From Athalassotoga saccharophila (GTDB lineage Bacteria > Thermotogota > Thermotogae > Mesoaciditogales > Mesoaciditogaceae), in NCBI RefSeq assembly GCF_009936215.1, contig NZ_AP019551.1, positions 651,501-715,500 on the forward strand: DNA of 64,000 nt, given 5' to 3'. The notes beneath the pieces are model-generated. The model searched no databases. It was given only the letters and a program-made list of their open reading frames with translations, and was not told the DNA's origin. This document shows positions 28,085 to 43,889 of the stretch, one piece after another. The translations under genes were made by a program, and so were the position numbers. How positions within the stretch are numbered: position 1 is the stretch's first letter; the number at the start of each line of letters is the position of its first letter.

Positions 28085-28170
28085 TTACCGAAGCGGAGAG
28101 CAGGATGCCCTCGAGATGGCCGGCGCTGCGGATCGAGGACAGACATCGAGCGGGGCACCTGCCGGAGCCA
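28085..28170. ncRNA. Candidate structured RNA (GC-rich island)
   Basis: About 80 bases of strongly GC-rich sequence stand in an AT-rich gap. Pairing is extensive: GCAGG (28100-28104) with CCTGC (28158-28162), GCCC (28107-28110) with GGGC (28153-28156), CTCGA..TG with CA-TCGAG (28110-28118 with 28144-28150), and an inner CCG/CGG hairpin (28120-28131). In thermophiles with moderate GC, such islands are typically functional RNAs. I cannot match it to SRP RNA, RNase P, 6S or tmRNA, and the strand is unknown. Confidence 0.4.
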
Positions 28171-28350
28171 AAATGGTGTTTTACACATGATCAGGTATAG
28201 CATTTTCCACAACAATCATCAAAAAAACAAAGATAATCAATTTAATTTTACGATTTTAAGACTAAATTTAGGATAATCAAGATATTTTTCAGAAAAAAGC
28301 TTAAAATCGCCAAATTCGGTATTTGCATTTTTGTACTTTTATATGTTTTC

Positions 28351-28370
28351 ATTTAGTTGTATTTAGTTTT
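28351..28370 (+). promoter_or_regulatory. Direct repeats, possible DeoR-type operator
   Basis: ATTTAGTT occurs at 28351-28358 and again at 28361-28368, one helical turn apart, with ATTTGG following. The repeats end directly at the ribosome site of the uronate isomerase gene. A DeoR-family regulator is encoded in the same operon, and such regulators often use short direct repeats. Confidence 0.35.
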
Positions 28371-28386
28371 ATTTGGAGGCGCAAAA

Positions 28387-29634
28387 ATGAATATAAAGAA
28401 AGAAGAAGTAAGCAAGATCGTCAAAAAGGCCGTCGATGAGGTCCAAATAGTCGATCTCCATACTCATATCTTCGATCTGAGATTCAAAGACTTATTGTTG
28501 TGGGGAATCGATGATCTCCTCACCTATCATTATTTGATAGCCGAAGTTATGAGGTTTTCTGAAATGCCTTACGATGAATTTTGGAAGATGACAAAAACAG
28601 AACAGGCAAATCTCATATGGAAAACGTTGTTCATCGAAAATTCTCCCTTAAGTGAAGCGGCAAGAGGCGTTATAACGGTTTTGAAATCTGTCGGACTCGA
28701 TCCTTCTAAGCGTGATATAGATGGATACAGAAGGTTTTTTGCATCTAAAAAGGTTGAAGAATACATCGATATAGTTTTCAAAACGGCCCATATAAAATAC
28801 GTTGTCATGACAAATGATCCATTCGTCGAAGATGAAAGAAAGATCTGGATCAAAAATGAAAAAGGGGATATCAGATTCAAAAGTGCGCTTCGAATAGATC
28901 CGCTTCTTGTCAAATGGCCGTCTTCTTATCTTAAACTCAGAGAATGGGGATACGATGTCGAAGAGAAATTGACAGAAAAGACCTTCTCTGAGATCAAAAG
29001 ATTTCTTTCTGATTGGATAGATCGCATGAATCCCCTTTACATGGCCGCATCTCTTCCGCCAGAATTCAAGGTTCCTTCAGATACGGAAACTGCCTTGATA
29101 ATAGAGAATGCCATAATTCCTGTCTCTTACGAGCATAACATACCCTTTGCGATGATGATAGGTGCCAAAAAACTCACAAATCCTCAATTAAAACTTGCCG
29201 GTGATTCGGTCGGGAAGGCAGATATAAACACCGTTGAGTATCTTGCGAGAATGTACCCTCACAATAAATTCCTTATCACGATGCTCTCGAAGGAAAATCA
29301 GCACGAACTCGTCGTTGCCGCGAGGAAGTTCAGGAATATCCATGTTTTTGGTTGCTGGTGGTTTTTGAATAATCCATCAATAGTCGATGAGATCACTCGA
29401 GAAAGAATGGAAATGTTAGGATTGAGTTTTACACCTCAGCACTCGGACGCGCGCGTGCTCGATCAACTCATATACAAATGGGATCACTCAAAGAAGGTTA
29501 TAGAAAAAGTGTTGATAGATAAATATCTCGATATTTTGGAAGATGGATGGACGATCACCGAAGAGGAGGTAAAAAGAGACGTTGAAAAACTCTTCGGTGG
29601 AGAATTTGAAGCATTTTTGAAGAGGAGATTTTGA
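28387..29634 (+). CDS. Uronate isomerase-like amidohydrolase
   Basis: A 415-residue metal-dependent TIM-barrel protein. Classic uronate isomerase converts glucuronate to fructuronate and galacturonate to tagaturonate. The metal motif DLHTHIF is near residue 22. The C-terminal part (TPQHSDARVLDQLIYKWDHS and the LFGGEF ending) matches a divergent uronate isomerase branch, shorter than E. coli UxaC (470). Start chosen at ATG 28387 because GGAGG lies 8 bases before it. First gene of the uronide region; its stop overlaps the ATG of the regulator gene by one base. Confidence 0.75.
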   Translation: MNIKKEEVSKIVKKAVDEVQIVDLHTHIFDLRFKDLLLWGIDDLLTYHYLIAEVMRFSEMPYDEFWKMTKTEQANLIWKTLFIENSPLSEAARGVITVLKSVGLDPSKRDIDGYRRFFASKKVEEYIDIVFKTAHIKYVVMTNDPFVEDERKIWIKNEKGDIRFKSALRIDPLLVKWPSSYLKLREWGYDVEEKLTEKTFSEIKRFLSDWIDRMNPLYMAASLPPEFKVPSDTETALIIENAIIPVSYEHNIPFAMMIGAKKLTNPQLKLAGDSVGKADINTVEYLARMYPHNKFLITMLSKENQHELVVAARKFRNIHVFGCWWFLNNPSIVDEITRERMEMLGLSFTPQHSDARVLDQLIYKWDHSKKVIEKVLIDKYLDILEDGWTITEEEVKRDVEKLFGGEFEAFLKRRF

Positions 29635-30422
29635 TGTTAGAAGAGACTCGAAAGGCCCGCCTTATAGACATAATAAAGGAAAAGGGAGAGGTTACGGTAA
29701 AGGAACTTTCTGAAATTTTGGGTGTAACGGGTACAACCATAAGAAAGGATCTCTCAGATCTTGAAAGCATTGGAATGGTAGTGCGCACACACGGTGGGGC
29801 ATTGCTTCCATCTCATACAAAGGTTGAGTGGGGTTTCATTCAGAAATCTCAACAGCACGTTGAAGAAAAATCTGCCATAGCCAAAAAAGCGCTTGAGTTT
29901 GTAAAGCCCGGAGACAGCATAATCTTGGACAGCGGCACTACAACCTTAGCGATGGCAAGAGAGATAAAGAGGATAAAATTGCTTCCTTTAACGATTGTAA
30001 CGAATAACTTTTTCATAGCGACAGAACTCGTCGGAACAGGTGTCGATCTCATAGTGATCGGTGGAATTGTAAGAGAGAATAGTTTTTCTTTGATAGGCGC
30101 ATTCGCGGAAGAGAACATAAAAAAGATATACGCAGACAAAGCCTTTGTCGGGGCGACGGGATTTTCTAAAGATGGATTTATGACTCCGAATGTCAACGAG
30201 GCAAAGATAAAGTCTTTGATGATCTCTCAATCGAGCGAATCTTTTGTCATAGTTGATTCTTCAAAATTTGAAAGACCGTCATTTGCGATTTATGCGAATT
30301 TGAATCAAATAGATCACGTTATAACCGATTGGAAAGTGTCGGAAAGTGCAAAGACAATACTTGTAAATGCCGGTGTGGATTTGATTGTTGCGAAGGAGGA
30401 CGAAAATGATCTTAAAAGATAA
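29634..30422 (+). CDS. DeoR-family transcriptional regulator
   Basis: A 262-residue repressor-type regulator. The N-terminal winged helix, ELSEILGVTGTTIRKDLSDL with a following THGGA (residues about 21-52), is the DeoR signature. Residues about 75-240 form the sugar-phosphate-sensing ISOCOT domain (DSGTTTLAMA, GGIVRENSFSLIG). It lies between the isomerase and the fused aldolase gene, overlaps the latter by 17 bases, and probably controls the whole region in response to a phosphorylated intermediate. Confidence 0.92.
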   Translation: MLEETRKARLIDIIKEKGEVTVKELSEILGVTGTTIRKDLSDLESIGMVVRTHGGALLPSHTKVEWGFIQKSQQHVEEKSAIAKKALEFVKPGDSIILDSGTTTLAMAREIKRIKLLPLTIVTNNFFIATELVGTGVDLIVIGGIVRENSFSLIGAFAEENIKKIYADKAFVGATGFSKDGFMTPNVNEAKIKSLMISQSSESFVIVDSSKFERPSFAIYANLNQIDHVITDWKVSESAKTILVNAGVDLIVAKEDENDLKR

Positions 30423-32535
30423 CATTGTAACGGTTGTCCAGCCGATGGCCTTCCCGGGACGGCAGAACACGAACTCAATGCAAAGGGGAGAACCAAGCGA
30501 AAAATATCTTATGGATTCGCTCAAAACTATTGCATCGGACAATTACTTCGGAGGAATAGAGATAACTCGTATAAAGGATCCCGTTTTGAGAAAGAAAGCG
30601 ATAGATTTTCTCAAAACGACAAAACTTCACATTTTCTTCGGAGCCCAATTTGTCCAGTCGTTGAACGAAGAAGGATACGCTCCGACAGATATTTCCTCGA
30701 TAAACGAACTTGACAGGGTAAACGGTGTGAATCGTCTCAAAGAGTTGATCGATCAGGCATACGAATTCAACGCCGAAGGATTTACATTCAGATCCGGGCG
30801 CGATCCCGGTATAGAATTGCGCGAGACGGCAAAACTTTCTTTGGTAAGATCAATTCATGAACTTTGCGAATATTCTGATCGCGTGGCAAAGACTCTAAAG
30901 AGGAAGCCGATGAAACTGATCTTGGTCATGTTCGATAGAATCAACGATCCGAGAGGGCGCTTTCACGATCAGTTAATAGGACCCACACTCGAGGCGATAG
31001 AGATAGCAAGGCGTGTAAGAGACGAGTACCACCACGATGAATTCGGACTTCTGTACGATCTTACCCATATGCTTCTTATAAGGAATACAAAATCGATAAT
31101 CGATCACATAAATCTTGAAATACAAGCGGGAGATCAAACAAAAAAATATGAGAATTTGGTCAAGGCTGAAGAGGTTGAAGAGCCTGAATTTGCAGAGGTT
31201 TTGCAGTATCTCAAGCCATACCTTTTCCATGTACACATAGGAAATTGCGTGCTTGATCCCAGCGATCCCAATTACGGCGATGCCCACATATCCTTTGCAT
31301 ACCCAAACGGCGCGATTAAATTGAGAGAGGTTGCCGATTTTGTAAAAGCGCTCCACGAAATGGATTACACAGGACCAATCGGCTTCGAAGTCATGCCGCG
31401 CGGTCGCGAGGGAAGTGTGCCAGTATTGCAGCATTCCAAATCCTTCTACGATGATGCCAGAACGTGGCAAGATGTCATATATGGAGTTGGAAAGTACAGA
31501 TTTGTAACTCGAGAATATTTTCCCGAATGGGCATTCTACAAATTGACAGATCTCAGAGTTAAAAATCCCGAAATAATAGAGGAGACTCTGAAGGCAAGAA
31601 AGAGAAGAAAATCACTGACCGAAGATGGTTACCTTGTCATCCTCGCAGCCGATCATCCGGCCCGTCGCGTTACGGGCGTGGGAGATAATCCAACACTGAT
31701 TGGCGACAGGCTCGAATATTTAGGGAGGATTGTAAGAGTTTTGACATACGGATACGTTGACGGTGTCATGGCCACGCCCGATTTGATAGATGAACTTGCG
31801 ATGATAGATTATCTTTACAGAAAATCTGGAAGAAAGAGTTTCTTGGATAACAAGGTAATAATGGGCAGCATGAACAGATCGGGCCTTGCGGGAATTGAAT
31901 ACGAGATGGAAGATGTCATAACCTCTTACTGGCCGAAAGACCTTGTGAGGTTTAACCTCGATGCCGGAAAGTTGCTCTTCAGACTTGACACGGGAAAATA
32001 TTCGAGATGGTCTTTGAAGACGCTCGAAGAGTGTGCGGCAGCCGTAAGAGAATGCAACGAATTAGGCCTTCCAGTGTTTTTAGAGCCTTTGCCGGTAACA
32101 AGAAAGGATGAGAGTTCATCGTACGAGGTTATAGCAGACGCAAATGAATTGATCAAGATCGTCGGAGTTGTTTCGGCGATAGGAGGAAGCAGCGCAAAGA
32201 TGTGGATAAAGATTCCTTACGTTCCAAATTTCGAAAGAGTTGCAAGATCGACGACATTGCCGATTCTTATCCTTGGTGGAGAATCAAAAGAAGATCCAAC
32301 CTACACGATGGAAAATCTCTCGAAGGCACTCGAAAGTGGGCCTAATGTAAGAGGTGCACTTATCGGACGAAATGTGCTCTTTCCAGGCGATGACGATCCC
32401 GCGGCCGTGTCTTACGGCGTCTTTAGAACTGTCCATGATGGGCTGAGCGCTGCGGAGGCTTTGGAAGATTTGATAAAGCGCAGGAATGACAACTTTGACG
32501 AATTGAAAAAAGTATTCGAAGAGACTTTAGAGTGA
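30406..32535 (+). CDS. Fusion of a xylose-isomerase-like TIM barrel and a Cgl0159-type class I aldolase
   Basis: The protein has 709 residues. Residues 1 to about 390 resemble the sugar phosphate isomerase/epimerase TIM barrels (LLYDLTHMLL, HVHIGNC, GFEVMPRG with a likely metal Glu). Residues about 405-709 match the Cgl0159 family, aldolases of the IolJ/LacD/DeoC class found in inositol clusters (ILAADHPARRVTGVGDNP, VIMGSMNRSGLAG, ILGGESKED). Lys602 in WIKIPYVP sits where the Schiff-base lysine is expected. Start at ATG 30406 after AAGGAGG. The fusion suggests two successive steps of one sugar pathway; substrates are unknown. Confidence 0.75.
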   Translation: MILKDNIVTVVQPMAFPGRQNTNSMQRGEPSEKYLMDSLKTIASDNYFGGIEITRIKDPVLRKKAIDFLKTTKLHIFFGAQFVQSLNEEGYAPTDISSINELDRVNGVNRLKELIDQAYEFNAEGFTFRSGRDPGIELRETAKLSLVRSIHELCEYSDRVAKTLKRKPMKLILVMFDRINDPRGRFHDQLIGPTLEAIEIARRVRDEYHHDEFGLLYDLTHMLLIRNTKSIIDHINLEIQAGDQTKKYENLVKAEEVEEPEFAEVLQYLKPYLFHVHIGNCVLDPSDPNYGDAHISFAYPNGAIKLREVADFVKALHEMDYTGPIGFEVMPRGREGSVPVLQHSKSFYDDARTWQDVIYGVGKYRFVTREYFPEWAFYKLTDLRVKNPEIIEETLKARKRRKSLTEDGYLVILAADHPARRVTGVGDNPTLIGDRLEYLGRIVRVLTYGYVDGVMATPDLIDELAMIDYLYRKSGRKSFLDNKVIMGSMNRSGLAGIEYEMEDVITSYWPKDLVRFNLDAGKLLFRLDTGKYSRWSLKTLEECAAAVRECNELGLPVFLEPLPVTRKDESSSYEVIADANELIKIVGVVSAIGGSSAKMWIKIPYVPNFERVARSTTLPILILGGESKEDPTYTMENLSKALESGPNVRGALIGRNVLFPGDDDPAAVSYGVFRTVHDGLSAAEALEDLIKRRNDNFDELKKVFEETLE

Positions 32536-32545
32536 GGTGATTTGG

Positions 32546-32980
32546 ATGATATTCGATATGAAAGAAGAAAATTTGATCTTTGTAAGATTTGACACGGGTG
32601 ATGATTTTTTTGAGTCTTTGTATTCGGTCGTCGAAAAATATTCCATGAATGCCGGCGTTATTCTTTCGGGGATGGGCATGCTCAAAGATTTTGAAATAGG
32701 ATGGTTCAACATGGAAAAGGATCAATACGAAAAGATAAAAGTAGAAACGCCCCACGAACTTGTGGCGCTGACGGGTAACATAGCAAGAAAGGACGGAAAA
32801 CCCTTCGCCCACATCCACGTTGCCCTCGCAGGCCCGGATAAAAAGTTAGTCGGTGGTCATCTTTTTGGCGCAAAAGTAAACATAACGAACGAGATCTTCA
32901 TTTACAAAATAGATTCAATGAAATTCGAAAGAGTCGCGTACGGATCATTTAACAAGTTGGAAGGAAGGTATTTCAAATAA
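32546..32980 (+). CDS. PPC (DUF296) domain protein
   Basis: A 144-residue single-domain protein of the plants-and-prokaryotes-conserved fold. It has the central GMGMLKDFEIGW, FAHIHVALAG and GGHLFGAKV segments whose histidines line a trimer pocket in relatives. Many bacterial copies have no known function; some cluster with sugar or nucleotide genes. Start at ATG 32546 after GAGGTGA. Tight linkage to the fused aldolase (10-base gap) suggests a metabolite-binding or catalytic role in the same pathway. Confidence 0.8.
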   Translation: MIFDMKEENLIFVRFDTGDDFFESLYSVVEKYSMNAGVILSGMGMLKDFEIGWFNMEKDQYEKIKVETPHELVALTGNIARKDGKPFAHIHVALAGPDKKLVGGHLFGAKVNITNEIFIYKIDSMKFERVAYGSFNKLEGRYFK

Positions 32981-33012
32981 CCCGAAAGGGAATTTTTAAG
33001 GAGGTGTTGTTT

Positions 33013-34320
33013 GTGAAAAGGGTATTTGTGATATTGTCAGTTTTACTTGTTGCAGTGATGTTCGTCGCTTTTTCCCAGCAAATAACTTTGACCTTTGCTT
33101 ATTTCACAGATGGGCCGGATCTTCCTGTCATTCAATCGTTGATAGCACAGTATGAGCAACTTCATCCGGATGTAAAAATAAATCTGTTGAATATACCGTA
33201 CAGTGATTACGCTCAAAAACTATCAACGATGATTCAAGGTGGAACACCACCCGATATTGCAAGAGCAGGGGACATAATACCTTATCAAGATGTTGCTTTA
33301 AATATAGCGCCATATATCACATCTTTTACAGGTGAGAGCGTTGAAGAATGGGTAAAAAATCATAGCGGTTTTACATCTATGGAGTACTGGTACGATACAA
33401 GGCATGAAGTTCTTGGCATTCCATGGGATGCCGGTGCTCATGCGTTATTTTACAACAAAGATGAGTTTGCAAAGGCTGATATCACAGCACCTTCAACAAC
33501 TCCATGGACATGGGCGCAATGGGAATCTGCAATGGAAAAAATAGTCAACAGCGGCGCTGCTAAATATGCTCTTACTTATGAAAAAACATCTTACAGATGG
33601 TCGAACTTACTTTATCAGGCCGGAGGTCAGATATGGAATGAAAATGGTCAATGTGTCATAAATAATCCTGAAGGAGTAAGAGCCTTGTCCTTTTTCGTGT
33701 CTTTGTTTAGGAAGAATCTTATTCCTGAATCAGTATGGGTGGGCAATACGCCAGCCTTCAGTTACTTCCAAAATGGTCTTGCTTCAATGTTTTACTCAGG
33801 AACATGGATGATTCCGGAACTAATGCAAAAAGGGACTGTGAATTTCAAGTGGGGAGTTATGCCACTTCCAATGGATAAAGTTAATGCTGTAATGACCGGG
33901 CCAAAAGTTATTCTCGGATTTAAGAGTACAAAATATCCAAAACAAGTTGCAGAGTTCATGTTGTGGTTGACCTCTAAACCAATATTGACACAGTGGTGCC
34001 AAAAACTTGGTGCCATTCCAGCGAATCATCAATTACTCCAAGAAGGCATAGATTATGGAAATCCAGAATTGAACTCGGTAATGCAGATAATTCTTACAGA
34101 TCTTAACAAAGGGACTCAAGTACAAGGTAACTGGCCTGCCAATTTTGAGAGAGACTGGATTGTTGGTAATACGGCTGTTATAACTCAAACCTACTATCCA
34201 CGTCTTGTTCAAGATATAGTTAACGCTATTTCTGGGACCATGACACCTCAGCAAGCACTTAATGACGTTGCAAGTTATTTTAACCAGCAAATGGCAAATT
34301 TAAAAACATCTTCTAAGTGA
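33013..34320 (+). CDS. ABC transporter sugar-binding protein (family 1)
   Basis: A 435-residue secreted receptor. A basic start and hydrophobic core (about 1-22) form a signal peptide. The mature part is a periplasmic-binding-protein fold of the MalE/UgpB class (LLNIPYSDYAQKLSTMIQGG, PDIARAG, WDAGAHALFYNKDEF). GTG at 33013 lies six bases after AAGGAGGTG. The likely ligand is a uronic-acid-containing oligosaccharide, from the neighbouring glycosidases. From here to about 38590 the DNA is visibly more AT-rich than its surroundings. Confidence 0.88.
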   Translation: MKRVFVILSVLLVAVMFVAFSQQITLTFAYFTDGPDLPVIQSLIAQYEQLHPDVKINLLNIPYSDYAQKLSTMIQGGTPPDIARAGDIIPYQDVALNIAPYITSFTGESVEEWVKNHSGFTSMEYWYDTRHEVLGIPWDAGAHALFYNKDEFAKADITAPSTTPWTWAQWESAMEKIVNSGAAKYALTYEKTSYRWSNLLYQAGGQIWNENGQCVINNPEGVRALSFFVSLFRKNLIPESVWVGNTPAFSYFQNGLASMFYSGTWMIPELMQKGTVNFKWGVMPLPMDKVNAVMTGPKVILGFKSTKYPKQVAEFMLWLTSKPILTQWCQKLGAIPANHQLLQEGIDYGNPELNSVMQIILTDLNKGTQVQGNWPANFERDWIVGNTAVITQTYYPRLVQDIVNAISGTMTPQQALNDVASYFNQQMANLKTSSK

Positions 34321-34326
34321 AAAAAT

Positions 34327-34349
34327 TCCGGCAGCTTCATGCTGCCGGA
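34327..34349 (+). repeat. Hairpin between binding-protein and permease genes
   Basis: Arms TCCGGCAGC and GCTGCCGGA (9 bp) enclose TTCAT. No T-run follows; the ribosome site of the permease comes instead. This is the usual position for a processing or mRNA-stabilising stem that keeps the receptor more abundant than the permeases. Confidence 0.65.
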
Positions 34350-34365
34350 TTTGGAGGTTTAATTC

Positions 34366-35238
34366 ATGAAATTAAGAAAATTTATTCCCTATATTTTTTT
34401 GGCTCCTGCTTTTTCCATATTTCTCATATTCATAATATATCCGGGTGTATTGGGATTTATAGTTTCTATGTATAGAACTCCTTACTCATTTGGTCAGAGT
34501 GTATTTGTTGGATTTAACAATTACCTTTCGATTTTTGAAACAACGAGTTTTTTAGATGCTCTTTTAAGGACCTTTTTGTTCAGTTTACTCGTAGTACCTA
34601 CGATTTATTGCTTTTCATTGGGACTTGCCCTTTTGATGACGTCACCAAGCGTTAAAGCAAAGTCTGTTTTGCGAGTCTTCTTTTTTCTACCAAGTGTTCT
34701 ATCCGGAGTTATAACTGCTTTGATATGGGATTGGATGTTAAACTACGATTTTGGATTTCTAAACAATTTATTTACAGTCTTGGGTTTACGAAATTTACCA
34801 TTTCTTTTAAACCCAACTTATGCTTTTTTATCTCTTGTTTTGATAATGTCGTGGGCTGCTTCAGGGTTTTTCATGGTAATTTTCATAGCCGGAATTCAAT
34901 CAATACCTCAAGAACTTTATGAGGCAGCCGAAATAGATGGTGCAAGTACTTTCGAAAAATTCACTTTTATAACCTTGCCCATGCTAAAACCCACCTCTAT
35001 ACTTGTCATAATTCTTTCGACAATACAAAGCATGCAACTTTTTGATATACCCTTTGTCTTAACAGGTGGTGGTCCCGGAGAGTCTACAACTTTTGCCGTT
35101 GAAAAAGTTTATAACACGGCATTTATAAATCTTAATATGGGTTTAGCCTCAGCGATGTCTTTTATTCTATTCTTAGTCTTTTTAACGATAGGAATTTTAC
35201 AATTTAAAGTTTCAAGAGAGGGGCAATTTTTAGCATGA
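34366..35238 (+). CDS. ABC sugar permease, MalF/UgpA class
   Basis: A 290-residue inner-membrane permease with six hydrophobic segments. The coupling loop reads LYEAAEIDGASTFEKFTFIT (near 185-204), and the class motif GGGPGEST is near 238. It ends in a 4-base overlap with the second permease. No ATPase is encoded nearby, so a shared MsmK-type ATPase is expected. Confidence 0.9.
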   Translation: MKLRKFIPYIFLAPAFSIFLIFIIYPGVLGFIVSMYRTPYSFGQSVFVGFNNYLSIFETTSFLDALLRTFLFSLLVVPTIYCFSLGLALLMTSPSVKAKSVLRVFFFLPSVLSGVITALIWDWMLNYDFGFLNNLFTVLGLRNLPFLLNPTYAFLSLVLIMSWAASGFFMVIFIAGIQSIPQELYEAAEIDGASTFEKFTFITLPMLKPTSILVIILSTIQSMQLFDIPFVLTGGGPGESTTFAVEKVYNTAFINLNMGLASAMSFILFLVFLTIGILQFKVSREGQFLA

Positions 35239-36053
35239 AAAAATCAGTAAAATCAATCTTTTTAAATGTTTTGACTTACATATTGTTGTTCTTATTCTTT
35301 TTTCCAATCTTTTGGCTTGTACTTTCTTCTTTTAGACCATCTTACGATCTTTACGCTTATCCTCCGAAGTTGTTATCTACAGATTTGACTTTTGAAAATT
35401 ATATAAATGCATGGACATCTGGAGATTTTCCACTTTACTTCATGAATTCAGCGATTGTAACGGTTTCTTCGACGATTCTAACAGTCGCAATTAGCATGAT
35501 GGCTGGTTTTGCTCTCGCAAAATATAAATTTTTCGGTGGAAATGTACTTTTTTGGACAATGTTAGCCACCTTGATGTTACCACTTCAGGTTATCATGATA
35601 CCTATTTTCATAGTATTAAAGAATTTTCACATGTTGAACTCATATCTTGGCCTTATAATACCGCCTGCCGCCACACCTACAGGTATTTTCCTTGTCAGGC
35701 AGTATCTCGTATCTTTGCCAAATGAACTTATTGAGTTTGCGAGGATTGATGGAGCTTCTGAATGGAGGATTTTTTGGTCAATAATTCTTCCTCTTTCTAC
35801 CCCAGTTATAGCGACTTTAACAATTTTTTCGGTAATGTGGAGATGGAATGATTTTCTATGGCCTTTAATAGTCATAAGCAATGAGAAATTGTATACAGTT
35901 CAACTTGCCTTAGGCATGTTTTCAGGACAGCATACTATAAACTGGTCAGGATTGCTTCCTATGACGGTTCTTTCAATGATACCAATAGTTGTTGTTTTTA
36001 TTGCTTTCCAGCGTTTGTTTATAAAGGGAATTTACGCTGGTTCTGTGAAATAA
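35235..36053 (+). CDS. ABC sugar permease, MalG/UgpE class
   Basis: A 272-residue partner of the preceding permease with six hydrophobic segments. The coupling loop LIEFARIDGASEWRIFWSII lies near 165-184, and the ending FIKGIYAGSVK is typical of MalG-class permeases. It is ordinary in size, unlike the 787-residue MalG near 23 kb. A PIG-L deacetylase gene follows after 14 bases. Confidence 0.9.
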   Translation: MKKSVKSIFLNVLTYILLFLFFFPIFWLVLSSFRPSYDLYAYPPKLLSTDLTFENYINAWTSGDFPLYFMNSAIVTVSSTILTVAISMMAGFALAKYKFFGGNVLFWTMLATLMLPLQVIMIPIFIVLKNFHMLNSYLGLIIPPAATPTGIFLVRQYLVSLPNELIEFARIDGASEWRIFWSIILPLSTPVIATLTIFSVMWRWNDFLWPLIVISNEKLYTVQLALGMFSGQHTINWSGLLPMTVLSMIPIVVVFIAFQRLFIKGIYAGSVK

Positions 36054-36067
36054 GGAGAAGAGTATCA

Positions 36068-36742
36068 ATGGATAAAGTTGATATTTTAGCCATAGGCCCA
36101 CATCCAGACGATGTTGAAATAGGATGTTCCGGTTTTATTCTTAAGGCAAAGTCTGCCGGGTACCAATCACAGATTGTCGTTGTCACCGATGGACAGGCCG
36201 GTCTAAGTGGAAGTCAAGAAATGAGAATAAAAGAAGCGACAGAATCTGCTATGTTTTTAACCGGTAAAGAACCAATTTTTCTACATGAAAATGATGGTCT
36301 GCTTGATGATACTTTAGAACTCAGAACGAAAATCGCAAATTTGATAAGAACTTTTAGACCAAAGATTGTTATTTCGCCATTCAATAAGGATAAGCATCCA
36401 GATCATGTTGTTCTTTCCGACATTACGAGAAAGGCTATATTCATGGCACGGTCAAATATAAAAGCCCTTGAGAATGTAAGACATCAGATTCAAGTTCATC
36501 TCGAGATGATTCTTGATCCGATATCGGCCGGACAAGACGAAAAAGTGATAATCGATCTGTCTGATGTTTGGAATGATAAATTAAAATCTCTTGATTTTCA
36601 TAGATCTCAAAAAGAGGTTATATATAATTACTTTAAATTCGATCAAATGATCTCAGAAAATTTTGGGCTGGCACATTGTGAATTGTTCAAATTAAGAAAT
36701 TCTATTCTTAAAAATATAAATTCATTTATAGGGGATGAATAA
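36068..36742 (+). CDS. PIG-L/LmbE-family deacetylase
   Basis: A 224-residue zinc-dependent N-deacetylase fold. The metal motif GPHPDDVEIGCSG (about 9-21) and the second ligand region KDKHPDHV (near 115) are intact. Relatives deacetylate N-acetylglucosamine-containing compounds such as bacillithiol precursors or chitooligosaccharides. Its position between sugar permeases and a glycosidase points to an acetylated sugar substrate, perhaps a glucuronate/N-acetylhexosamine disaccharide. It overlaps the next gene by 8 bases. Confidence 0.85.
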   Translation: MDKVDILAIGPHPDDVEIGCSGFILKAKSAGYQSQIVVVTDGQAGLSGSQEMRIKEATESAMFLTGKEPIFLHENDGLLDDTLELRTKIANLIRTFRPKIVISPFNKDKHPDHVVLSDITRKAIFMARSNIKALENVRHQIQVHLEMILDPISAGQDEKVIIDLSDVWNDKLKSLDFHRSQKEVIYNYFKFDQMISENFGLAHCELFKLRNSILKNINSFIGDE

Positions 36743-38591
36743 GGTGAAATTGTCGAAATGCTCTATAGAATCGGATGTGATCAAAGATTTTTATCTATCA
36801 AATGAGTATTTGACTGTCAAGTTTGAATATTCAAGTATAAAGGGTATTTTTGGATCTGACAATGGTAAGTATATTGACTGGATTTCTTTTTCAGATAAAT
36901 TTGAAGAGGCAGTTTATTATCCCAATTCAATAACATTTGATAAAAAATTATCAGTGATTCTTTCAACTGAACCTGCTTTGGCGGTGTCCGTAAAAGGTCA
37001 AATTAAAATGAAATTGAAGGTCTTATTTGAAAAGCAATTAAGGATACCTGTCGTAGAAAAAATCCTAAGTTCGATCGAAAAATATGAAGTACATCAAAAT
37101 AAAAATGAAATTATAATAAAAGGCAAATCTAAGCGAATTTCGATTGTCGTTGAAGGAGCAAAATTCAACGTAAGAAGAAGTGGTGATATCTTGGCGTTTG
37201 ATATAAATCCTTCAGATGAGGCATGGATTTTGTTTTATTTTGGAGATAAAAGACCATCTGCTTCGAAAATAAAGGAATCTCATGGTAAATATTTGGAGTA
37301 TCTTTCGAATATTTTTAATTCAGAAGACGAACTTATAAATTCCTTATTTGTTTTTTCTTTGCATACTGCAATCTCTAATCACAAAATAGGAATTGAAAAT
37401 GATTTTTCTGTTCTTTACGCAGGGCCAAGTTATGCTTTGCCCGCTAGAACTTATTATAGAGATTCTTTCTGGACTTCCAAAGCACTTTTACCATTTAAAC
37501 CATCGATCGTTAAAGATCAAATACAAGTTCTTTCAGACGGAATAGATGAAAATGGAAATGCTCCAAGTGGTATTGTTTTTGCTTCAAAAGAAGAATTTGA
37601 ATTGTCAAGAAAATTCGCGAATCTTGATCCTAAAGTACGGCAATTTCAAAGAAGGCCGCAAGATTGGTGGTCAGATCACTGGGATTCTCCTTATTTTTTT
37701 GTGCTTTTAGTGTATGATTATTTAAGATGGACCGGCGATCGAGAGATTTTAACTGAGGATATTTTGAAAAAGATAAGGGTTATTCTCGATAAATTTGAGC
37801 AGGATAAATGGATTTTCTTTAAGGATGAAGATGTAAAAGATTGGTCTGATAACGTTGTAAGATCTGGTTTTGTTACTTATGATCTTTCACTTTATGCTGG
37901 CTCTTTAATTAGCGCATCGAAGATTTTTGAATCAATTGATCAAAATACATCGGCAAAGTATATAGAAGGATATAAGACCATAAAACGGTTTATGAATGAT
38001 GAAATATGGAAGGCAGATCATTTCGCCGATTATATCAACGAAAAAATCGGTAAAATCGAAGATCATATCAATATTGATACTGTAGTAACTTTACTTTACG
38101 ATATTCCTGATAACGATGAAACATTTATCGATACTTTGAAGAGATATCTTTTTACTAAGAATAACGATGAGCAAAGATTTGGAGATTGGGGAATATTGAG
38201 TGTATGGCCATTTTATAAATATAAAGAAGATCTCAAATTCAAAAGTGCTTTTCCTTATAGATATCATAACGGCAGTGACTGGCCTTATTGGGATGGGATA
38301 ATAGCCAAAATTCTTCTAAGTAGATCGGACCCTGAATGGAAATATGCTTTGTTAAGATCATGGGAATATTCGCTTTCAAACAAATGGTATCTTCCCGTTG
38401 AATATTATTCGCCTCCATTTGGTCGTGGAGGATTATTGCAAGCATGGAGTGCCACACCTGTTTGGGCAATAGTTTCTGGTGGATTCGGCATAGAACCAGA
38501 TATAAATGGAAATTTCTCTTATAAAACTCCTCCATGGGGAAAGTCTACCTTGAAATTCAAATTGCATTCCAAAGATATAGAGATAAATTAA
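36735..38591 (+). CDS. Probable (alpha/alpha)6-barrel glycoside hydrolase
   Basis: A 618-residue cytoplasmic protein (no signal peptide). Residues about 1-180 look like a beta-sandwich domain. From about 200 the pattern is that of six-hairpin glycosidases: LPARTYYRDSFWTSKALLPF, WWSDHWDSPYFFVLLVYDYL and RYHNGSDWPYWDGIIAKILL, rich in aromatic and acidic residues lining a sugar cleft. It recalls glucoamylase or debranching-type enzymes, but I cannot assign a GH family. It shares the AT-rich composition of the ABC genes and is followed by beta-glucuronidase. Confidence 0.65.
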   Translation: MNKVKLSKCSIESDVIKDFYLSNEYLTVKFEYSSIKGIFGSDNGKYIDWISFSDKFEEAVYYPNSITFDKKLSVILSTEPALAVSVKGQIKMKLKVLFEKQLRIPVVEKILSSIEKYEVHQNKNEIIIKGKSKRISIVVEGAKFNVRRSGDILAFDINPSDEAWILFYFGDKRPSASKIKESHGKYLEYLSNIFNSEDELINSLFVFSLHTAISNHKIGIENDFSVLYAGPSYALPARTYYRDSFWTSKALLPFKPSIVKDQIQVLSDGIDENGNAPSGIVFASKEEFELSRKFANLDPKVRQFQRRPQDWWSDHWDSPYFFVLLVYDYLRWTGDREILTEDILKKIRVILDKFEQDKWIFFKDEDVKDWSDNVVRSGFVTYDLSLYAGSLISASKIFESIDQNTSAKYIEGYKTIKRFMNDEIWKADHFADYINEKIGKIEDHINIDTVVTLLYDIPDNDETFIDTLKRYLFTKNNDEQRFGDWGILSVWPFYKYKEDLKFKSAFPYRYHNGSDWPYWDGIIAKILLSRSDPEWKYALLRSWEYSLSNKWYLPVEYYSPPFGRGGLLQAWSATPVWAIVSGGFGIEPDINGNFSYKTPPWGKSTLKFKLHSKDIEIN

Positions 38592-38604
38592 GGAGATGTT
38601 TGAA

Positions 38605-40299
38605 TTGTTAAGACCACAGATGAATCTTTGCAGATCGACAGTCGAACTTTCTGGGATGTGGAAAATACGCGCTCACGGTAAGGAAAGGCCGATTGCTGTT
38701 TCTGCCAGTTGGAATGAACAGTACGAAGATCTTTTCTTTGAAGAGGGACCGGTCGAGTATATCTACGATCTGGATGTGCCATATGAATGGAAGGATAAAC
38801 GTGTTAGATTTTATTTTGGTGCCGTGAATACAAAGAGCAGGGTATATGTAAACGATGATCTGGCAGTATCCAATGCCATTGGATATCTCCCTTTCGAATG
38901 CTACCCAAAATTGGAATACGGATCTACGAACAAAATTCGCGTCGAGGTTGAGAATAAATTATCAAAGGATGATCTGCCAGCCGGTCGAATGCCAGGCTTT
39001 GAGAGGGCCGGCAACTTTCCTCCGGCAAATTTCGACTTTTTCCCGTACGGCGGAATTATAAGGATGCCATACGCAGAAATTTCTTCAAAGGCCTCTGTTT
39101 TGGACATCAACCTCAGATGCGATAAATCCGTTCCTTCCAAAAAAATGGGTCTTGTAGAGATCACAATAGAAATGACAAAAGAGTGTATCGGGAAGAATAT
39201 AGAGGTGTCGATTAATGATCTCAAAATCGCAAAAAAGATAACATCTACAAATGAAAGTTTTGATTTCGAGATCAAAAATGCCCATTTCTGGGATTTAGAC
39301 GATCCTTATCTTTACGAGGTAAGATCGAGGATTCTTTATAAAGATGAATTGATCGACGAGTACAGGATAAAGACGGGCATAAGGACTATATCGTTAGACG
39401 ACAAACATATAATCTTGAACGATAAACCCGTCAAATTGCTTGGCTTTGGAAAGCATGAAGAGTTCCCGGTCGAAGGGCAGGGCACCTTTAAGCCTTTGAT
39501 CGTTAAAGATTACGATCTTCTAAGGTGGATAGGCGCGAATTCTTTCAGAACCTCACATTATCCTTATTCCGAAGAATGGCTCGATATGGCAGATGAACTT
39601 GGCTTTCTTGTCATAGACGAAGCGCCACACGTCGGGCTTGAGAAGTACCATTACGAAAATGAAAAGACCGTTGATCTGTGCGTGGAGGATATCAAAAGGC
39701 TTATCGACAGGGACAAAAACCATCCGTCCGTTATCATGTGGAGCGTTGCCAATGAGCCGGATTCTGCGCACCCAAAATCGGACGGATTTTTCAAAAGATT
39801 GTACGATACGGCTAAAAGTGCCGATCCGACAAGGCCGGCAACGATGGTAAGTTGCGTGCCTTTTTGCGAAAAATCGGGAGGGCCGGATGTGGCAATGAAG
39901 CATTTCGACGTCATAAGCGTGAATCGCTATTATGGCTGGTACAATCATCAAGGAAAGATAAAGGAGGCCGAGAAGTTGCTCTCGGACGATTTAGATGCGC
40001 TTTACGAGACTTACAAAAGGCCCGTGATTTTGACGGAATTCGGTGCCGATGCGATATCTGGTTTTCACGCAAACCCGGCGCAGATGTTTTCGGAAGAGTA
40101 CCAGTCCGAATACATCGAGAGGTTGTTTGAAGTTGCGAGTAAAAAGGATTTTGTAACGGGCATACATGTCTGGGCCTTTGCCGATTTCAAAACGGCCCAG
40201 AATGTTCACAGGCCGCTTTTCAATTACAAAGGAGTCTTTACAAGGGACAGAAATCCCAAGATGGCTGCACATACTTTAAAAAGATTATGGAGGAGGTAA
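38605..40299 (+). CDS. uidA: Beta-glucuronidase (GH2)
   Basis: Cleaves terminal beta-glucuronic acid from glycosides. The 564-residue protein starts MLRPQMNLCR as family members do. It has sugar-binding, Ig-like and TIM-barrel domains in order. Glu384 in ANEP is the acid/base and Glu478 in TEFGAD the nucleophile. Asn540-x-Lys542 in FNYKGVF is the N-K pair that reads the carboxylate of glucuronate, which argues against beta-galactosidase. Start at TTG 38605, because the in-frame ATG at 38596 lies inside the AAGGAG ribosome site. No signal peptide, so it acts on imported disaccharides. Confidence 0.92.
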   Translation: MLRPQMNLCRSTVELSGMWKIRAHGKERPIAVSASWNEQYEDLFFEEGPVEYIYDLDVPYEWKDKRVRFYFGAVNTKSRVYVNDDLAVSNAIGYLPFECYPKLEYGSTNKIRVEVENKLSKDDLPAGRMPGFERAGNFPPANFDFFPYGGIIRMPYAEISSKASVLDINLRCDKSVPSKKMGLVEITIEMTKECIGKNIEVSINDLKIAKKITSTNESFDFEIKNAHFWDLDDPYLYEVRSRILYKDELIDEYRIKTGIRTISLDDKHIILNDKPVKLLGFGKHEEFPVEGQGTFKPLIVKDYDLLRWIGANSFRTSHYPYSEEWLDMADELGFLVIDEAPHVGLEKYHYENEKTVDLCVEDIKRLIDRDKNHPSVIMWSVANEPDSAHPKSDGFFKRLYDTAKSADPTRPATMVSCVPFCEKSGGPDVAMKHFDVISVNRYYGWYNHQGKIKEAEKLLSDDLDALYETYKRPVILTEFGADAISGFHANPAQMFSEEYQSEYIERLFEVASKKDFVTGIHVWAFADFKTAQNVHRPLFNYKGVFTRDRNPKMAAHTLKRLWRR

Positions 40300-40303
40300 T
40301 GGT

Positions 40304-41689
40304 ATGAAGATCACATTCGTAGGAGCGGGAAGTGTAAGATACACGTTGAAATTAGTTGGCGATCTGGCAAAGACGAAAGAATTATCAGGAACTGTTGTTT
40401 CCTTGATGGATATCGACGAAAGGCGTCTTGATGCCATATACAGTCTATCTCAAAGGTACACATCTGAGATAGGCGGTAATTTGAAGTTCGAAAAGACGAC
40501 GAATTTGGAGAAGGCCCTCGATGGTGCGAACTTTGTCATAAACACGGCCCTCGCACGTGGAGAAGGTCATCAGGACGGGTATGTCCAGTACGAGATAATG
40601 AGAGATATCGGTCAAAAGCATGGATATTACCGCGGAATAGATTCTCAAGAGTTCAACATGGTCTCCGATTATTACACGCTTTCGAATTACAATCAACTCA
40701 AACTCCATTTGGACATCGCAAAAGCAGTCGAGAGGATATGTCCGGACGCATACCTTATCCAAACTGCAAACCCGGTCTTTGAGATAACACAATTGGTATT
40801 GAGGCAGACGAAAGCAAAGATAATAGGATTCTGTCATGGATTCGGAGGCGTTCATGAGGTTTTCAAAACTTTGGGCCTTGATGAGAAGGAAATAGACTGG
40901 CAGATAGCCGGAGTCAATCACGGGATATTTTTAAATAGATTTATATACAAAGGAAAGAATGGATATCCCATTTTGGACGAATGGATAAAAGAAAAATTGC
41001 CAAAATGGGAATCGACGAGTCCGTGGGACATGCAGATGAGTCCTGCGGCGATGGACATGTACGAATTTTACGGGATGATCCCGATAGGCGACACCGTAAG
41101 GAATGGAACGTGGAAGTATCATTATAACCTCGAGACCAAGAAAAAATGGTTTGGAAAATTCGGAGGGATAGACAACGAAGTTGAGAGACCGAAGTTTTAT
41201 GAAGAGTTAAGACAGATAAGAGAAAAGATAATAGACATTTCAAAAGATCCATCCCTTAAGTTAACGCAATCATGGCCAGAAGAATTTCCGAAAGATAAAT
41301 TGAGTGGCGAACAACAAATACCATTCATAAACGCAATTGCAAATGGAAAAGAGGCAAGACTGTATCTTAACATTTTGAATAAAGGCACGATAAAGGGAAT
41401 TCCAGACGATGTTGTTGTTGAAGTGCCTGTCAGGGTAGACAAAAAAGGGATTCATCCAGAAAAGATAGATCCTGATTTGACGGATAGAATAAAGAAGATG
41501 TATCTGACGCCGAGGATAATGAGGATGGAAATGGCACTCGAGGCCTTTATAACCGGAGACAGACGGGTACTCGAGGAGATTTTAATAAGGGATCCAAGGA
41601 CGAAGTCTGAGAAACAGGTGAAGGATGTCTTGGACGAGATAATGAATTTGCCTTTCAATTCTGAGATGAAAAAACATTACAGATCGTGA
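40304..41689 (+). CDS. GH4-family glycosidase, probably alpha-glucuronidase
   Basis: GH4 enzymes use NAD and Mn(II) and a redox elimination mechanism. The 461-residue protein has the N-terminal nucleotide motif GAGSVRYT (7-14), the TANP segment, and FCHGFGG, whose Cys is a metal ligand, with GVNHG following. Thermotoga species have several alpha-glucuronidases of this type, and the beta-glucuronidase and uronate isomerase neighbours support that specificity over alpha-glucosidase or alpha-galactosidase. It starts 4 bases after the beta-glucuronidase stop and overlaps the AEC carrier gene by 4 bases. Confidence 0.85.
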   Translation: MKITFVGAGSVRYTLKLVGDLAKTKELSGTVVSLMDIDERRLDAIYSLSQRYTSEIGGNLKFEKTTNLEKALDGANFVINTALARGEGHQDGYVQYEIMRDIGQKHGYYRGIDSQEFNMVSDYYTLSNYNQLKLHLDIAKAVERICPDAYLIQTANPVFEITQLVLRQTKAKIIGFCHGFGGVHEVFKTLGLDEKEIDWQIAGVNHGIFLNRFIYKGKNGYPILDEWIKEKLPKWESTSPWDMQMSPAAMDMYEFYGMIPIGDTVRNGTWKYHYNLETKKKWFGKFGGIDNEVERPKFYEELRQIREKIIDISKDPSLKLTQSWPEEFPKDKLSGEQQIPFINAIANGKEARLYLNILNKGTIKGIPDDVVVEVPVRVDKKGIHPEKIDPDLTDRIKKMYLTPRIMRMEMALEAFITGDRRVLEEILIRDPRTKSEKQVKDVLDEIMNLPFNSEMKKHYRS

Positions 41690-42594
41690 TATACAAAATT
41701 CTTTCATACCTTGTGATAATAGCAATAGGATATTTTCTTAAATCGATCAATTTTTTGAATGAGACAGAAGGAAGGGCCTTTTCGAAGATAGTCATATACA
41801 TAACGCTTCCTGCCGTCATAATTCAGGCCGTTACAAGCGTAAAACTTACCCTTCCGCTTTTCTCGTTGACGGCCTTCGGAATTTTGACGACACTCACACT
41901 TATGATCGCGGGCTTTTTGATCTTTCGAAGATCGAATGCCGCCCGCGGTACAAAAGGATCTTTGATCTTGACATTCAACGGCCTGAACTTGGGGTTGTTT
42001 GCGTATCCTTTTGCCCAGTTATTGTGGGGAGGGAAGGGCCTTGCTTACATGTCGATTTTCGACATGGGAAATGGCCTCATGATATACACGGTAGGATATG
42101 CGATAGCGATACTTTTTTCTGAGGACGGATTCAGCACAAAAGAGGTTATCAAAAAGGTTTCGACCTTCCCGCCTTTGCTTGCGATATTTGGAGCCATAAT
42201 TTTGAACCTTTCTTTATCGAATGCAGATATACTTTCTGAATTTCTTGGAATATTCAGCGGGGCAAATGCATTTTTGTCTCTTTTGACGATAGGCATCTTT
42301 TTGAACTTTGAAAGGTTAAGGGTCGAATTCAGGAATATGGCAAAGGCCATTTCTTTTAAATATCTCATTGGTGCCGCGTTAGGCGTGACATTTTACTTTG
42401 TGCTAAGGATATTTGAGCCATCAAATGCGCTGATGGCTCAAGTTGTGCTTTTGAGTGCCCTTATGCCTGCACCGCTTTTGACGCTTTTGTACTCGATAGA
42501 CAAAAAACTCGATCCTGAACTTGCCGGCGGTACGGTAACGACAACCGTTATCGTAAGTTCGATATTTCTTTTGTGCTTTGGAGGCATTGTATGA
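41686..42594 (+). CDS. AEC-family (auxin efflux carrier-like) transporter
   Basis: A 302-residue membrane protein with about ten hydrophobic segments and the AEC start pattern (SYLVIIAIGYFLKSINFLNE then FSKIVIYITLPAVI). Members carry organic acids such as malate or malonate. In this setting it may export an acidic end product or move uronate-derived acids. It has a GTG start coupled to the GH4 stop and an ATGA overlap with the kinase gene. Confidence 0.85.
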   Translation: MIYKILSYLVIIAIGYFLKSINFLNETEGRAFSKIVIYITLPAVIIQAVTSVKLTLPLFSLTAFGILTTLTLMIAGFLIFRRSNAARGTKGSLILTFNGLNLGLFAYPFAQLLWGGKGLAYMSIFDMGNGLMIYTVGYAIAILFSEDGFSTKEVIKKVSTFPPLLAIFGAIILNLSLSNADILSEFLGIFSGANAFLSLLTIGIFLNFERLRVEFRNMAKAISFKYLIGAALGVTFYFVLRIFEPSNALMAQVVLLSALMPAPLLTLLYSIDKKLDPELAGGTVTTTVIVSSIFLLCFGGIV

Positions 42595-43889
42595 AGATAT
42601 ACGATGGTGTGATTGACTGGGGAATCAAAAGGGCACGTGATTCAAAGATGATAGCCCTTGGCTTTCACTCGGTCATAGATGGTCTTGTAAAGGTCGATCC
42701 GCAAAAGTTTGGCAATTTGGATCTCGCAATTCCACGGGAACTTTCAGCGCTTCCTGATTCGATAAAGTGTATCGATGATTTTTGGAAAGGTCTGATTTTT
42801 TCTTTCGTCAATGGAAGTGCTCTTCAGTTGATGATCGATTCGAAGGAAGTTTACGAATGGATAATGAAAACCTTTGGGACTGGCACTTTAAGGCTTGGCG
42901 GGACATCGGCCAACATGGCAAAGGGCCTTGTGCCATTTCCCTTTGAAAAGATTTTAGTCTACGTGTATCCTTTAGAAAAGGAGATTGCAAACCTCTTTCC
43001 GAATTCTAAAAACCTTTTCGTCGTCGGAAAGCATGGCCTTGATCATCCCATCAACGCGTATGACGGAGAAGGAATCGAGGCCATACACTGGATTTTTGAA
43101 TTTTCTCAAGGCCAATCTATGACGATTAAGGGCAAAATTTACACCTGTCCGAGATCCAACAGGTTCATAGCCTCATGGAATCCCGTCAATTCAAAGTTGG
43201 AAGTAAGAGATCCATTCAAATCTTACGTCATAGAACATGCGCAAGATATCTCTCATTTCCTTGTTTCTGGCTTTCACATCATGCAAGAGATTTATCCAGA
43301 CGGAGAGACGGTCGATGATAGAATCGATAAACTTTTGGAATTTGTAATGGCCTTAAGAGAGAAAAATTCGAGGATGAAATTTCATCTCGAATTCGCCTCG
43401 ATAAGACGTGATGGTGTAAGAAAGGCTGTGGAGGAGAAATTATTTTCAAGATTCGATAGCCTTGGCCTTAACGAGGTCGAACTTTCATGGGTTGCAAGGG
43501 ATATTGGGTACGATGAAAAAGATATTTTGAATCTGGACGTTGAAAGGATATCTCAGATAATATCCAAAATCATGAGAGGGAATCTTTCGAGAGTGCATTT
43601 TCATGCGCTTGGCTTTTATCTACTTGCATTGAAGGAAGGTTACAATCTTGAATCTCAAAAAAAGGCCCTTGCCTTTGCGTCTCTTGCGGCGGCCCAGAGG
43701 GCAATGGATGGGGAGATAAATTTGGAAAGATTCAAGTACATGTTGGATATTCCCGAAAAGTACGATTACAAAGAATGGGAAGAAGATGGAATTCATTTCA
43801 TTCTCTTTCCGACGAAGGTCGTTCCATCTCCCAAAATAACGGTTGGCCTTGGCGATACGATATCTTCTTTGGGCTTCGTGCTGGGATGA
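42591..43889 (+). CDS. ADP-dependent sugar kinase (ADP-glucokinase/phosphofructokinase family)
   Basis: A 432-residue ribokinase-like enzyme. The family signs are the Mg-binding HLEFAS (HxE) and LNEVEL (NxxE) motifs around residues 265-300, GGTSANMA near 105, and the C-terminal catalytic GLGDTIS with the aspartate base. Such kinases use ADP as phosphate donor in archaeal glycolysis; bacterial members are uncommon. Its place at the end of the uronide operon suggests it phosphorylates a pathway intermediate rather than glucose or fructose-6-phosphate. ATG at 42591 follows GGAGG. Confidence 0.8.
   Translation: MKIYDGVIDWGIKRARDSKMIALGFHSVIDGLVKVDPQKFGNLDLAIPRELSALPDSIKCIDDFWKGLIFSFVNGSALQLMIDSKEVYEWIMKTFGTGTLRLGGTSANMAKGLVPFPFEKILVYVYPLEKEIANLFPNSKNLFVVGKHGLDHPINAYDGEGIEAIHWIFEFSQGQSMTIKGKIYTCPRSNRFIASWNPVNSKLEVRDPFKSYVIEHAQDISHFLVSGFHIMQEIYPDGETVDDRIDKLLEFVMALREKNSRMKFHLEFASIRRDGVRKAVEEKLFSRFDSLGLNEVELSWVARDIGYDEKDILNLDVERISQIISKIMRGNLSRVHFHALGFYLLALKEGYNLESQKKALAFASLAAAQRAMDGEINLERFKYMLDIPEKYDYKEWEEDGIHFILFPTKVVPSPKITVGLGDTISSLGFVLG

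Follow-up and report, generated by a model that had tools for sequence, protein, structure and literature searches.

Analysis of a 64,000-nucleotide stretch of the genome of the hot-spring bacterium Athalassotoga saccharophila (referred to as the window; C1:651501-715500) revealed a run of 13 plus-strand genes (window positions 28387-43889), which probably degrades hexuronates without 2-keto-3-deoxygluconate (KDG). The genome comprises 2,044,999 bases in three contigs, and the window lies in the contig C1 (1,957,762 bp). Between the uronate isomerase gene, which opens the run, and the gene of an ADP-dependent kinase family protein (ADPK), which closes it, no gap exceeds 45 bp, and several of the genes overlap; given this tight spacing, the isomerase-to-ADPK run is likely to form a single operon. 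A transketolase gene (44798-47020) is adjacent to the 3′ end of the run, from which it is separated by an antitoxin/PIN gene pair. The gene content, conservation, active-site residues and phyletic pattern described below were computed directly, while the steps that would follow the isomerase are predicted, those of isomerisation by a triosephosphate isomerase (TIM) barrel domain and of the transketolase being the least certain. No description of such a pathway was found in the open-licence PubMed Central literature searched, and the genes probably represent an undescribed, conserved hexuronate module of deep-branching Thermotogota, whose plan resembles that of lower inositol catabolism.

According to the proposed scheme, glucuronides would enter the cell through an ATP-binding cassette (ABC) importer and would be cut by enzymes of glycoside hydrolase families 2 and 4 (GH2 and GH4). 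The released acid would then be processed in five steps: (i) free glucuronate (or galacturonate) would be converted to D-fructuronate (or D-tagaturonate) by a Bh0493-type isomerase, (ii) the ketohexuronate would be phosphorylated to its 1-phosphate by the ADP-dependent kinase, (iii) the 1-phosphate would be cleaved by a Cgl0159-type aldolase domain into dihydroxyacetone phosphate and tartronate semialdehyde, (iv) the latter would be isomerised to hydroxypyruvate by the TIM-barrel domain fused to the aldolase, and (v) hydroxypyruvate would act as an irreversible two-carbon donor for a dedicated transketolase, with release of CO2 and extension of an aldose phosphate (for example, of glyceraldehyde 3-phosphate to xylulose 5-phosphate). 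Overall, a hexuronate would be turned into a pentose phosphate plus CO2, without any redox step and without KDG as an intermediate. We consider the scheme as a whole, including its hydroxypyruvate and transketolase steps, to be evenly poised between right and wrong, and we put forward somewhat more tentatively the idea that it constitutes a redox-neutral route from hexuronate to pentose phosphate and CO2, through which deep-branching Thermotogota would link the breakdown of hexuronates and of inositol to the pentose phosphate pathway.

The conservation of the genes was examined in a survey of 103 Thermotogota genomes (including that of A. saccharophila, G000). The fusion gene is intact or nearly so in 12 of them and fragments of it are present in two more. 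A core composed of the genes for a DeoR-family regulator, the fusion protein, ADPK and the transketolase is constant in G000, G010, G011, G014, G087, G097 and G099; as it recurs in six further intact clusters, with fusion proteins sharing 61–96% identity, the run is not a chance assembly. The regulator gene was found in every intact core cluster examined, the transketolase gene is part of the cluster at all nine Thermotogota loci where this region is visible, and wherever the contig extends to them the ADPK and transketolase genes share a cluster with the isomerase and fusion genes. In G015 and G016 the transketolase was retained while the fusion and ADPK decayed. ADPK-family genes occur in 13 genomes, 11 of which are among the 14 that carry the fusion gene (intact or as fragments; Fisher p about 1e-10, ignoring shared ancestry). 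A search of genome contigs with the fusion detected, as near relatives, only close ones, labelled Mesoaciditoga or Mesoaciditogaceae. In the Mesoaciditogaceae clusters the core begins with the uronate isomerase gene and contains a gene for a PPC domain protein; the ABC importer and hydrolases typical of the genus Athalassotoga are replaced in two other genera (loci L053 and L054) by a DctP/DctM transporter of the tripartite ATP-independent periplasmic type. Decayed operons of two Mesoaciditogaceae genomes (L061 and L062), both with fragments of the fusion and one with a fragment of ADPK, have an intact transketolase gene, adjoined in one of them by a glycerate kinase gene.

A first-pass annotation of this DNA had listed the enzymes and transporters of the run; every gene that it named was present on the plus strand, and the observation is confirmed. 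This includes the uronate isomerase-like protein (28387-29634, plus strand), whose full-length similarity to the solved structure of Bh0493 (PDB 2q08/2pnk) extends over 409 residues (5-413 of 415; E=5.2e-162), although no Pfam or NCBIfam model matched it. It is the sole Bh0493-type copy in the genome; the classical UxaC (PF02614) was not found in this genome, and a search for uronate isomerase relatives on plasmids yielded none. A homologue from outside the phylum (44–46% identity) is encoded within a UxuA-isomerase-SDR-KdgK-KdgA operon (L112; SDR, short-chain dehydrogenase/reductase), which supports hexuronate isomerisation as the role of the family. The A. saccharophila protein is predicted to act on hexuronates because it is closely related to the characterised Bh0493.

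The C-terminal domain of the fusion protein (31531-32535, plus strand) is a Cgl0159-type class I aldolase (PF22649, E=1.8e-67; PDB 3fok, E=4e-54), in which K602 is aligned with the Schiff-base lysine of LsrF. Homologues of Cgl0159 are encoded directly after iolC (5-dehydro-2-deoxygluconokinase) in inositol clusters on actinobacterial plasmids, and the step that follows IolC is the cleavage of 2-deoxy-5-keto-D-gluconate 6-phosphate. For this same deoxy-substrate, cleavage by a DUF2090 aldolase domain has been proposed from fitness data (PMC9007349), and we assume that DUF2090 is a functional counterpart of the Cgl0159 domain. By our own chemical reasoning, 2-deoxy-5-keto-D-gluconate, the IolC/IolJ substrate, is 5-deoxy-D-fructuronate, and D-fructuronate 1-phosphate is its 5-hydroxy analogue, one hydroxyl apart and with the same configuration at C3 and C4, so that no epimerisation would be needed before cleavage. 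We thus predict, from this precedent, that the domain splits ketohexuronate 1-phosphate into dihydroxyacetone phosphate and tartronate semialdehyde. The kinase and aldolase steps suggested in the first-pass annotation would fit the arrangement seen in the actinobacterial clusters.

The kinase itself (ADPK; 42591-43889, plus strand) matched PF04587 with 259.8 bits (cut-off 27), and its residues were mapped by hand from the alignment onto the positions of AncMsPFK (PMC7948494). With the ADP-dependent glucokinase/phosphofructokinase family it shares the profile, the GXGD aspartate (D422) and the catalytic arginine (R206, here R191), and D36 is kept as D30. In contrast, seven positions which in AncMsPFK contact or surround fructose 6-phosphate (F6P), its phosphate or glucose (PMC7948494) are changed: N32 to H26, N34 to V28, E90 to Q79, Q116 to T105, K179 to A164, N181 to H166 and R212 to N197. 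On this hand-mapped alignment, neither the phosphofructokinase signature K179/N181/R212 nor the glucokinase signature E90 was found in ADPK; at the position of H166, TlGK is reported to have the same type of residue. The seven replacements form a new set that is invariant in seven cluster kinases sharing 44–88% identity with the ADPK of the window. A pocket in which these residues are both replaced and invariant is not suited to F6P or glucose, and, as far as can be judged from the alignment, it is rebuilt for another substrate. From the precedent of the inositol clusters and the residue changes, we predict that ADPK is a ketohexuronate 1-kinase, with ADP as the probable donor in view of its family membership.

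The N-terminal part of the fusion protein (30406-31530, plus strand) is a xylose isomerase-like TIM barrel (PF01261, 38.1 bits versus 31.1) whose residues D177, D218, H275/H277 and E328, of metal-site type, are invariant over 13 relatives. The genes that surround its relatives are informative. In Enterococcus gilvus, the gene of such a relative (E=9e-24) is flanked by a Gcl-like gene on one side and by the genes for a D-2-hydroxyacid dehydrogenase and a glycerate kinase on the other, in a locus adjoining allantoin genes; the best NCBIfam model for the thiamine pyrophosphate enzyme encoded there is glyoxylate carboligase (636 bits, under the cut-off of 791), and gcl-hyi-glxR of E. coli is found in the same setting. 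In the Thermotogota family f8 (genera g25 and g26), standalone relatives are encoded beside a glyoxylate reductase-type (GyaR-like) gene (473 bits, over the cut-off of 455, in L064) and several of them also beside HpcH/GarL-type aldolase genes. These neighbourhoods, with a Gcl-like enzyme, an HpcH-type aldolase or a hydroxyacid dehydrogenase, fit the interconversion of tartronate semialdehyde and hydroxypyruvate, the activity that we predict for the TIM domain from its gene context. Fusion of such an isomerase to the producer of tartronate semialdehyde would be a sensible arrangement.

The transketolase (740 aa, PF00456; 44798-47020, plus strand) is divergent, its top NCBIfam match reaching 124 bits versus a cut-off of 488, and a second, ordinary-type transketolase is encoded elsewhere in the genome (C1:886161). 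The cluster enzyme has kept H28, H69, H122, H275, E457, H524, D532 and H536, together with R388, S421, H524 and R585 for phosphate binding, and these residues are invariant in eight sequences; their roles (catalytic histidines, thiamine diphosphate glutamate, phosphate binding) are those generally assigned in transketolases. Because the phosphate-binding set is kept, the acceptor is expected to be a phosphorylated sugar. Hydroxypyruvate is an established ketol donor for transketolase, a reaction known mainly as a laboratory device, and no member of the tartronate semialdehyde reductase family PF14833 was found in a search of the genome. From the gene context, we predict that the cluster enzyme transfers a ketol unit from hydroxypyruvate to an aldose phosphate, which would assign a definite function to a gene always present in the core and make specific the earlier suggestion that a transketolase handles the products of the run.

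The canonical KDG enzymes (UxuA, UxuB, KdgK and KdgA) are all lacking inside the cluster, as the first-pass annotation had stated, and within the window this holds. It does not hold for the genome: kdgA, kdgK, uxuA and the gene for an SDR-type D-mannonate oxidoreductase form one operon on the same chromosome (C1:148092-151626, about 530 kb from the run, adjoining a GH10 xylanase gene), so that all four of the genes for which a genome check had been proposed turned up, kdgK as a probable assignment. UxuA is an equivalog match (419 bits, cut-off 200), the oxidoreductase scored 422 (cut-off 281) and the Eda aldolase, which cleaves 2-keto-3-deoxy-6-phosphogluconate (KDPG), 181 (cut-off 156), and a probable KDG kinase is encoded in the same operon. 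A complete KDG pathway elsewhere that is induced by glucuronate in place of these genes had been named as fatal to the proposal; its first half, the complete operon, is thus a reality in A. saccharophila.

The argument for a route that avoids KDG is backed instead by comparison with relatives. UxuA (PF03786) was above the cut-off in 17 of the 103 Thermotogota genomes, and among the eight Mesoaciditogaceae with both isomerase and fusion it was found only in A. saccharophila; the other seven, four of which are 96–99% complete, gave no match. Among the genomes that carry the cluster, PF03786 was found only in G000, and not in G008-G014, G086, G087, G097 and G099, several of whose assemblies are incomplete.

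Several observations weigh against the proposed scheme. Over the whole phylum there is no significant anti-correlation between UxuA and the fusion (Fisher p=0.69), and the argument for an independent route therefore depends on the within-family pattern. The KDG operon of A. saccharophila contains no isomerase gene; with a single Bh0493-type copy in the genome, the isomerase of the window may feed the KDG route, or both routes. Some clusters have inositol genes, and not the isomerase gene, next to the core, and in two genomes from outside the phylum the fusion gene adjoins genes for a pyridoxal phosphate (PLP) aminotransferase and a GHMP kinase, with no transketolase. As regards the TIM domain, the Hyi model (TIGR03234) did not match it at E<=0.001, and a comparison of the TIM profile with E. 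coli Hyi, the UxuA of this genome and another PF01261-like protein, which proved no more distant from it than Hyi, did not tell isomerase from epimerase; together with profile searches, it places the domain among PF01261 enzymes. An AlphaFold2 model of the fusion protein (six sequences) had a mean pLDDT of 37 and was discarded. Finally, a MOFRL glycerate kinase is encoded in this genome, and in G016 the transketolase gene has a glycerate kinase gene as its neighbour, which leaves room for a reduction to glycerate.

Such a reduction is the basis of an alternative in which the front end of the pathway, as far as hydroxypyruvate, is the same, but a D-2-hydroxyacid dehydrogenase and glycerate kinase then yield 2-phosphoglycerate, with the transketolase serving only pentose and triose by-products. 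The hydroxyacid dehydrogenase genes beside relatives of the TIM domain, and the glycerate kinase gene of the Enterococcus locus, are also in its favour. However, no hydroxyacid dehydrogenase gene was seen in the Thermotogota core clusters, where the transketolase gene is always present, and we consider this ending unlikely, if worth bearing in mind.

It is also conceivable that the isomerase and hydrolases of the window supply the canonical uxuB-uxuA-kdgK-kdgA operon, and that the fusion protein, kinase and transketolase act on another sugar acid, such as an inositol product. This division would account for the KDG operon without an isomerase gene in a genome without UxaC, and it agrees with the IolM and IolN genes adjoining the core in the genus g36 and with the presence of an isomerase gene within the KDG operon of G106. 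Against it, the isomerase and the core stay together in the seven Mesoaciditogaceae without UxuA, the isomerase gene is the first of the core operon in Athalassotoga, and the inositol products are themselves ketohexonates, so that both substrates would converge; we therefore hold it to be distinctly improbable.

The order of reactions given in the first-pass annotation, where the TIM domain epimerises fructuronate before the kinase and the fused aldolase act and the transketolase recycles trioses, is improbable. The domain does share a fold family with ketose 3-epimerases and has weak matches to IolO (E=0.001) and TM_0416 (E=7.6e-6), but the score with the IolO model (NF041099) is only 18.5 bits against a cut-off of 300, the relatives of the domain occupy the tartronate semialdehyde step in unrelated clusters, and D-fructuronate already has the right configuration at C3 and C4. 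Moreover, a separate kinase would need to act between two fused steps. An epimerase role of the TIM domain is unlikely. Very improbable indeed is a transketolase-first route modelled on the sulfo-transketolase degradation of sulfoquinovose, in which C1-C2 would be removed from the ketohexuronate and the TIM domain, kinase and aldolase would process a four-carbon uronate semialdehyde: the transketolase is a constant core member in Thermotogota, and PF01261 isomerases and decarboxylating steps are known in tetronate pathways, but the Cgl0159 aldolase has a C6 precedent beside iolC and would here be required to act as a decarboxylase, and the fusion genes from outside the phylum have no adjoining transketolase gene.

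The proposed hydroxypyruvate and transketolase route can be compared with several known systems. The lower myo-inositol pathway follows the same logic, with a uronate isomerase (IolB), a 5-ketohexonate kinase (IolC) and an aldolase (IolJ, DUF2090 or Cgl0159 type), and both would yield dihydroxyacetone phosphate and a C3 semialdehyde. The cluster differs in that its substrate would retain one more hydroxyl, its kinase belongs to the ADP-dependent family, and cleavage would release tartronate and not malonate semialdehyde, with the fused TIM domain and transketolase in place of IolA. The Ashwell/KDG pathway (UxaC, UxuB, UxuA, KdgK and KdgA) shares the entry step from hexuronate to ketohexuronate, whereas the cluster would proceed without reduction, dehydration or KDPG cleavage. 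Tartronate semialdehyde/hydroxypyruvate chemistry is common to the gcl-hyi-glxR glyoxylate/allantoin cluster, and in E. gilvus the TIM relative takes the place of Hyi; here, in contrast, tartronate semialdehyde would arise by aldol cleavage of a uronate, in a genome where the search revealed no PF14833-family reductase.

Ketohexonate intermediates are also shared with the Thermotoga maritima network (IolG, IolM, IolN and IolO; UxaE), which sends them to KDG through UxaE and UxuBA, whereas in the present scheme the kinase, aldolase and transketolase would receive them. In genus g36 (L056, L057, L116 and L117), the kinase/fusion/transketolase core adjoins IolM, IolG-like and IolN genes, the IolM and IolN equivalogs being above their cut-offs, and in g32 it adjoins inositol-type genes at a contig end. 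As judged from these neighbours, ketohexonates may provide carbon from inositol with an entry into the same route in g36.

If the scheme is correct, it would add a route for glucuronate and galacturonate, major acids of the plant cell wall, to the KDG and oxidative ones, and would explain how relatives lacking UxuA could use uronates. The ADP-dependent kinase family would gain a class of substrate beyond glucose and fructose 6-phosphate, and hydroxypyruvate a physiological role as transketolase donor.

The uptake and hydrolysis genes lie in the middle of the run. An ABC importer of sugar/oligosaccharide type (binding protein and two permeases; PF01547, PF00528) is encoded at 33010-36053 and an AEC-type carrier (PF03547) at 41686-42594, both on the plus strand. 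The GH2 beta-glucuronidase candidate (38596-40299, plus strand) has beta-glucuronidase as its top NCBIfam model (489 bits, under the cut-off of 544); it contains the N543-x-K545 carboxylate-binding pair, already noted in the first-pass annotation, and both motifs of the catalytic glutamate pair, NEP at 386 and EFG at 481. The GH4 enzyme (40304-41689, plus strand), with a C-H-G-F motif at 177, is labelled AglA by NCBIfam, and its nearest solved group (1vjt/6kcx/7brf; E=3.5e-200, versus 4.6e-165 for AglA, 1obb) carries the PDB name "alpha-glucosidase". 1vjt corresponds to TM0752/Agu4B, and together with the CHG motif this points to a candidate, probably Agu4B-like, alpha-glucuronidase rather than an alpha-glucosidase. 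A 618-aa protein with a weak DUF608/GH116 signal (36735-38591, plus strand) is possibly an uncharacterised, perhaps GH116-like, glycoside hydrolase; no family scored above its cut-off, and a relative with 37% identity is encoded in another sugar cluster (L064, 4252-6060). The LmbE/PIG-L-type deacetylase (36068-36742, plus strand; PF02585, with the BshB1 model scoring under its cut-off) occurs in clusters of the genus Athalassotoga and appears to be accessory.

The DeoR-family regulator (29634-30422, plus strand; PF08220 and PF00455) may act at a candidate operator located just upstream of the isomerase gene, the imperfect tandem repeat TTTTCATTTAGTTGTATTTAGTTTTATT (28346-28373, plus strand). 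The repeat forms the 3′ end of a block (about 28322-28373) kept across three genera in an alignment of four upstream regions; no counterpart was recognised upstream of the kdgA operon of the same genome. Further upstream, an 82-bp block with 71% G+C (28088-28169) is present within the AT-rich region (40.5% G+C in the window as a whole); the corresponding region of the close relative L051 showed no such block. The PPC/PCC (DUF296) domain protein (32555-32980, plus strand; PF03479, E=5e-32) accompanies both the hexuronate clusters and the inositol-linked ones of another family (L116, 121-627; L117, 576-998), which points to a metabolic or regulatory function common to the two. The pair between the ADPK and transketolase genes (44107-44783) encodes a MazE/AbrB-type antitoxin (PF04014) and a PIN-domain toxin; the PIN gene is shared with the same-genus relative L113 and was not seen in loci L053-L057.

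The fusion gene was also found in three genomes from outside the Thermotogota (43–48% identity in the better-conserved part), two of which encode a Bh0493-type isomerase at a separate locus. In L128 (7124-10910) and L129 (9335-14176), the genes next to the fusion gene encode a GHMP kinase and an aminotransferase that is extended considerably at its N-terminus; one possible reading of this arrangement is transamination of hydroxypyruvate to serine. The neighbour had been taken by eye for a transketolase and is in fact the PLP aminotransferase, and the transketolase link is therefore claimed only within Thermotogota. Elsewhere in the A. saccharophila genome (L014, 6991-8899), overlapping genes for a PfkB-type kinase and an LsrF/DhnA-type aldolase, near ABC transporter genes, possibly specify a second kinase/aldolase sugar route.

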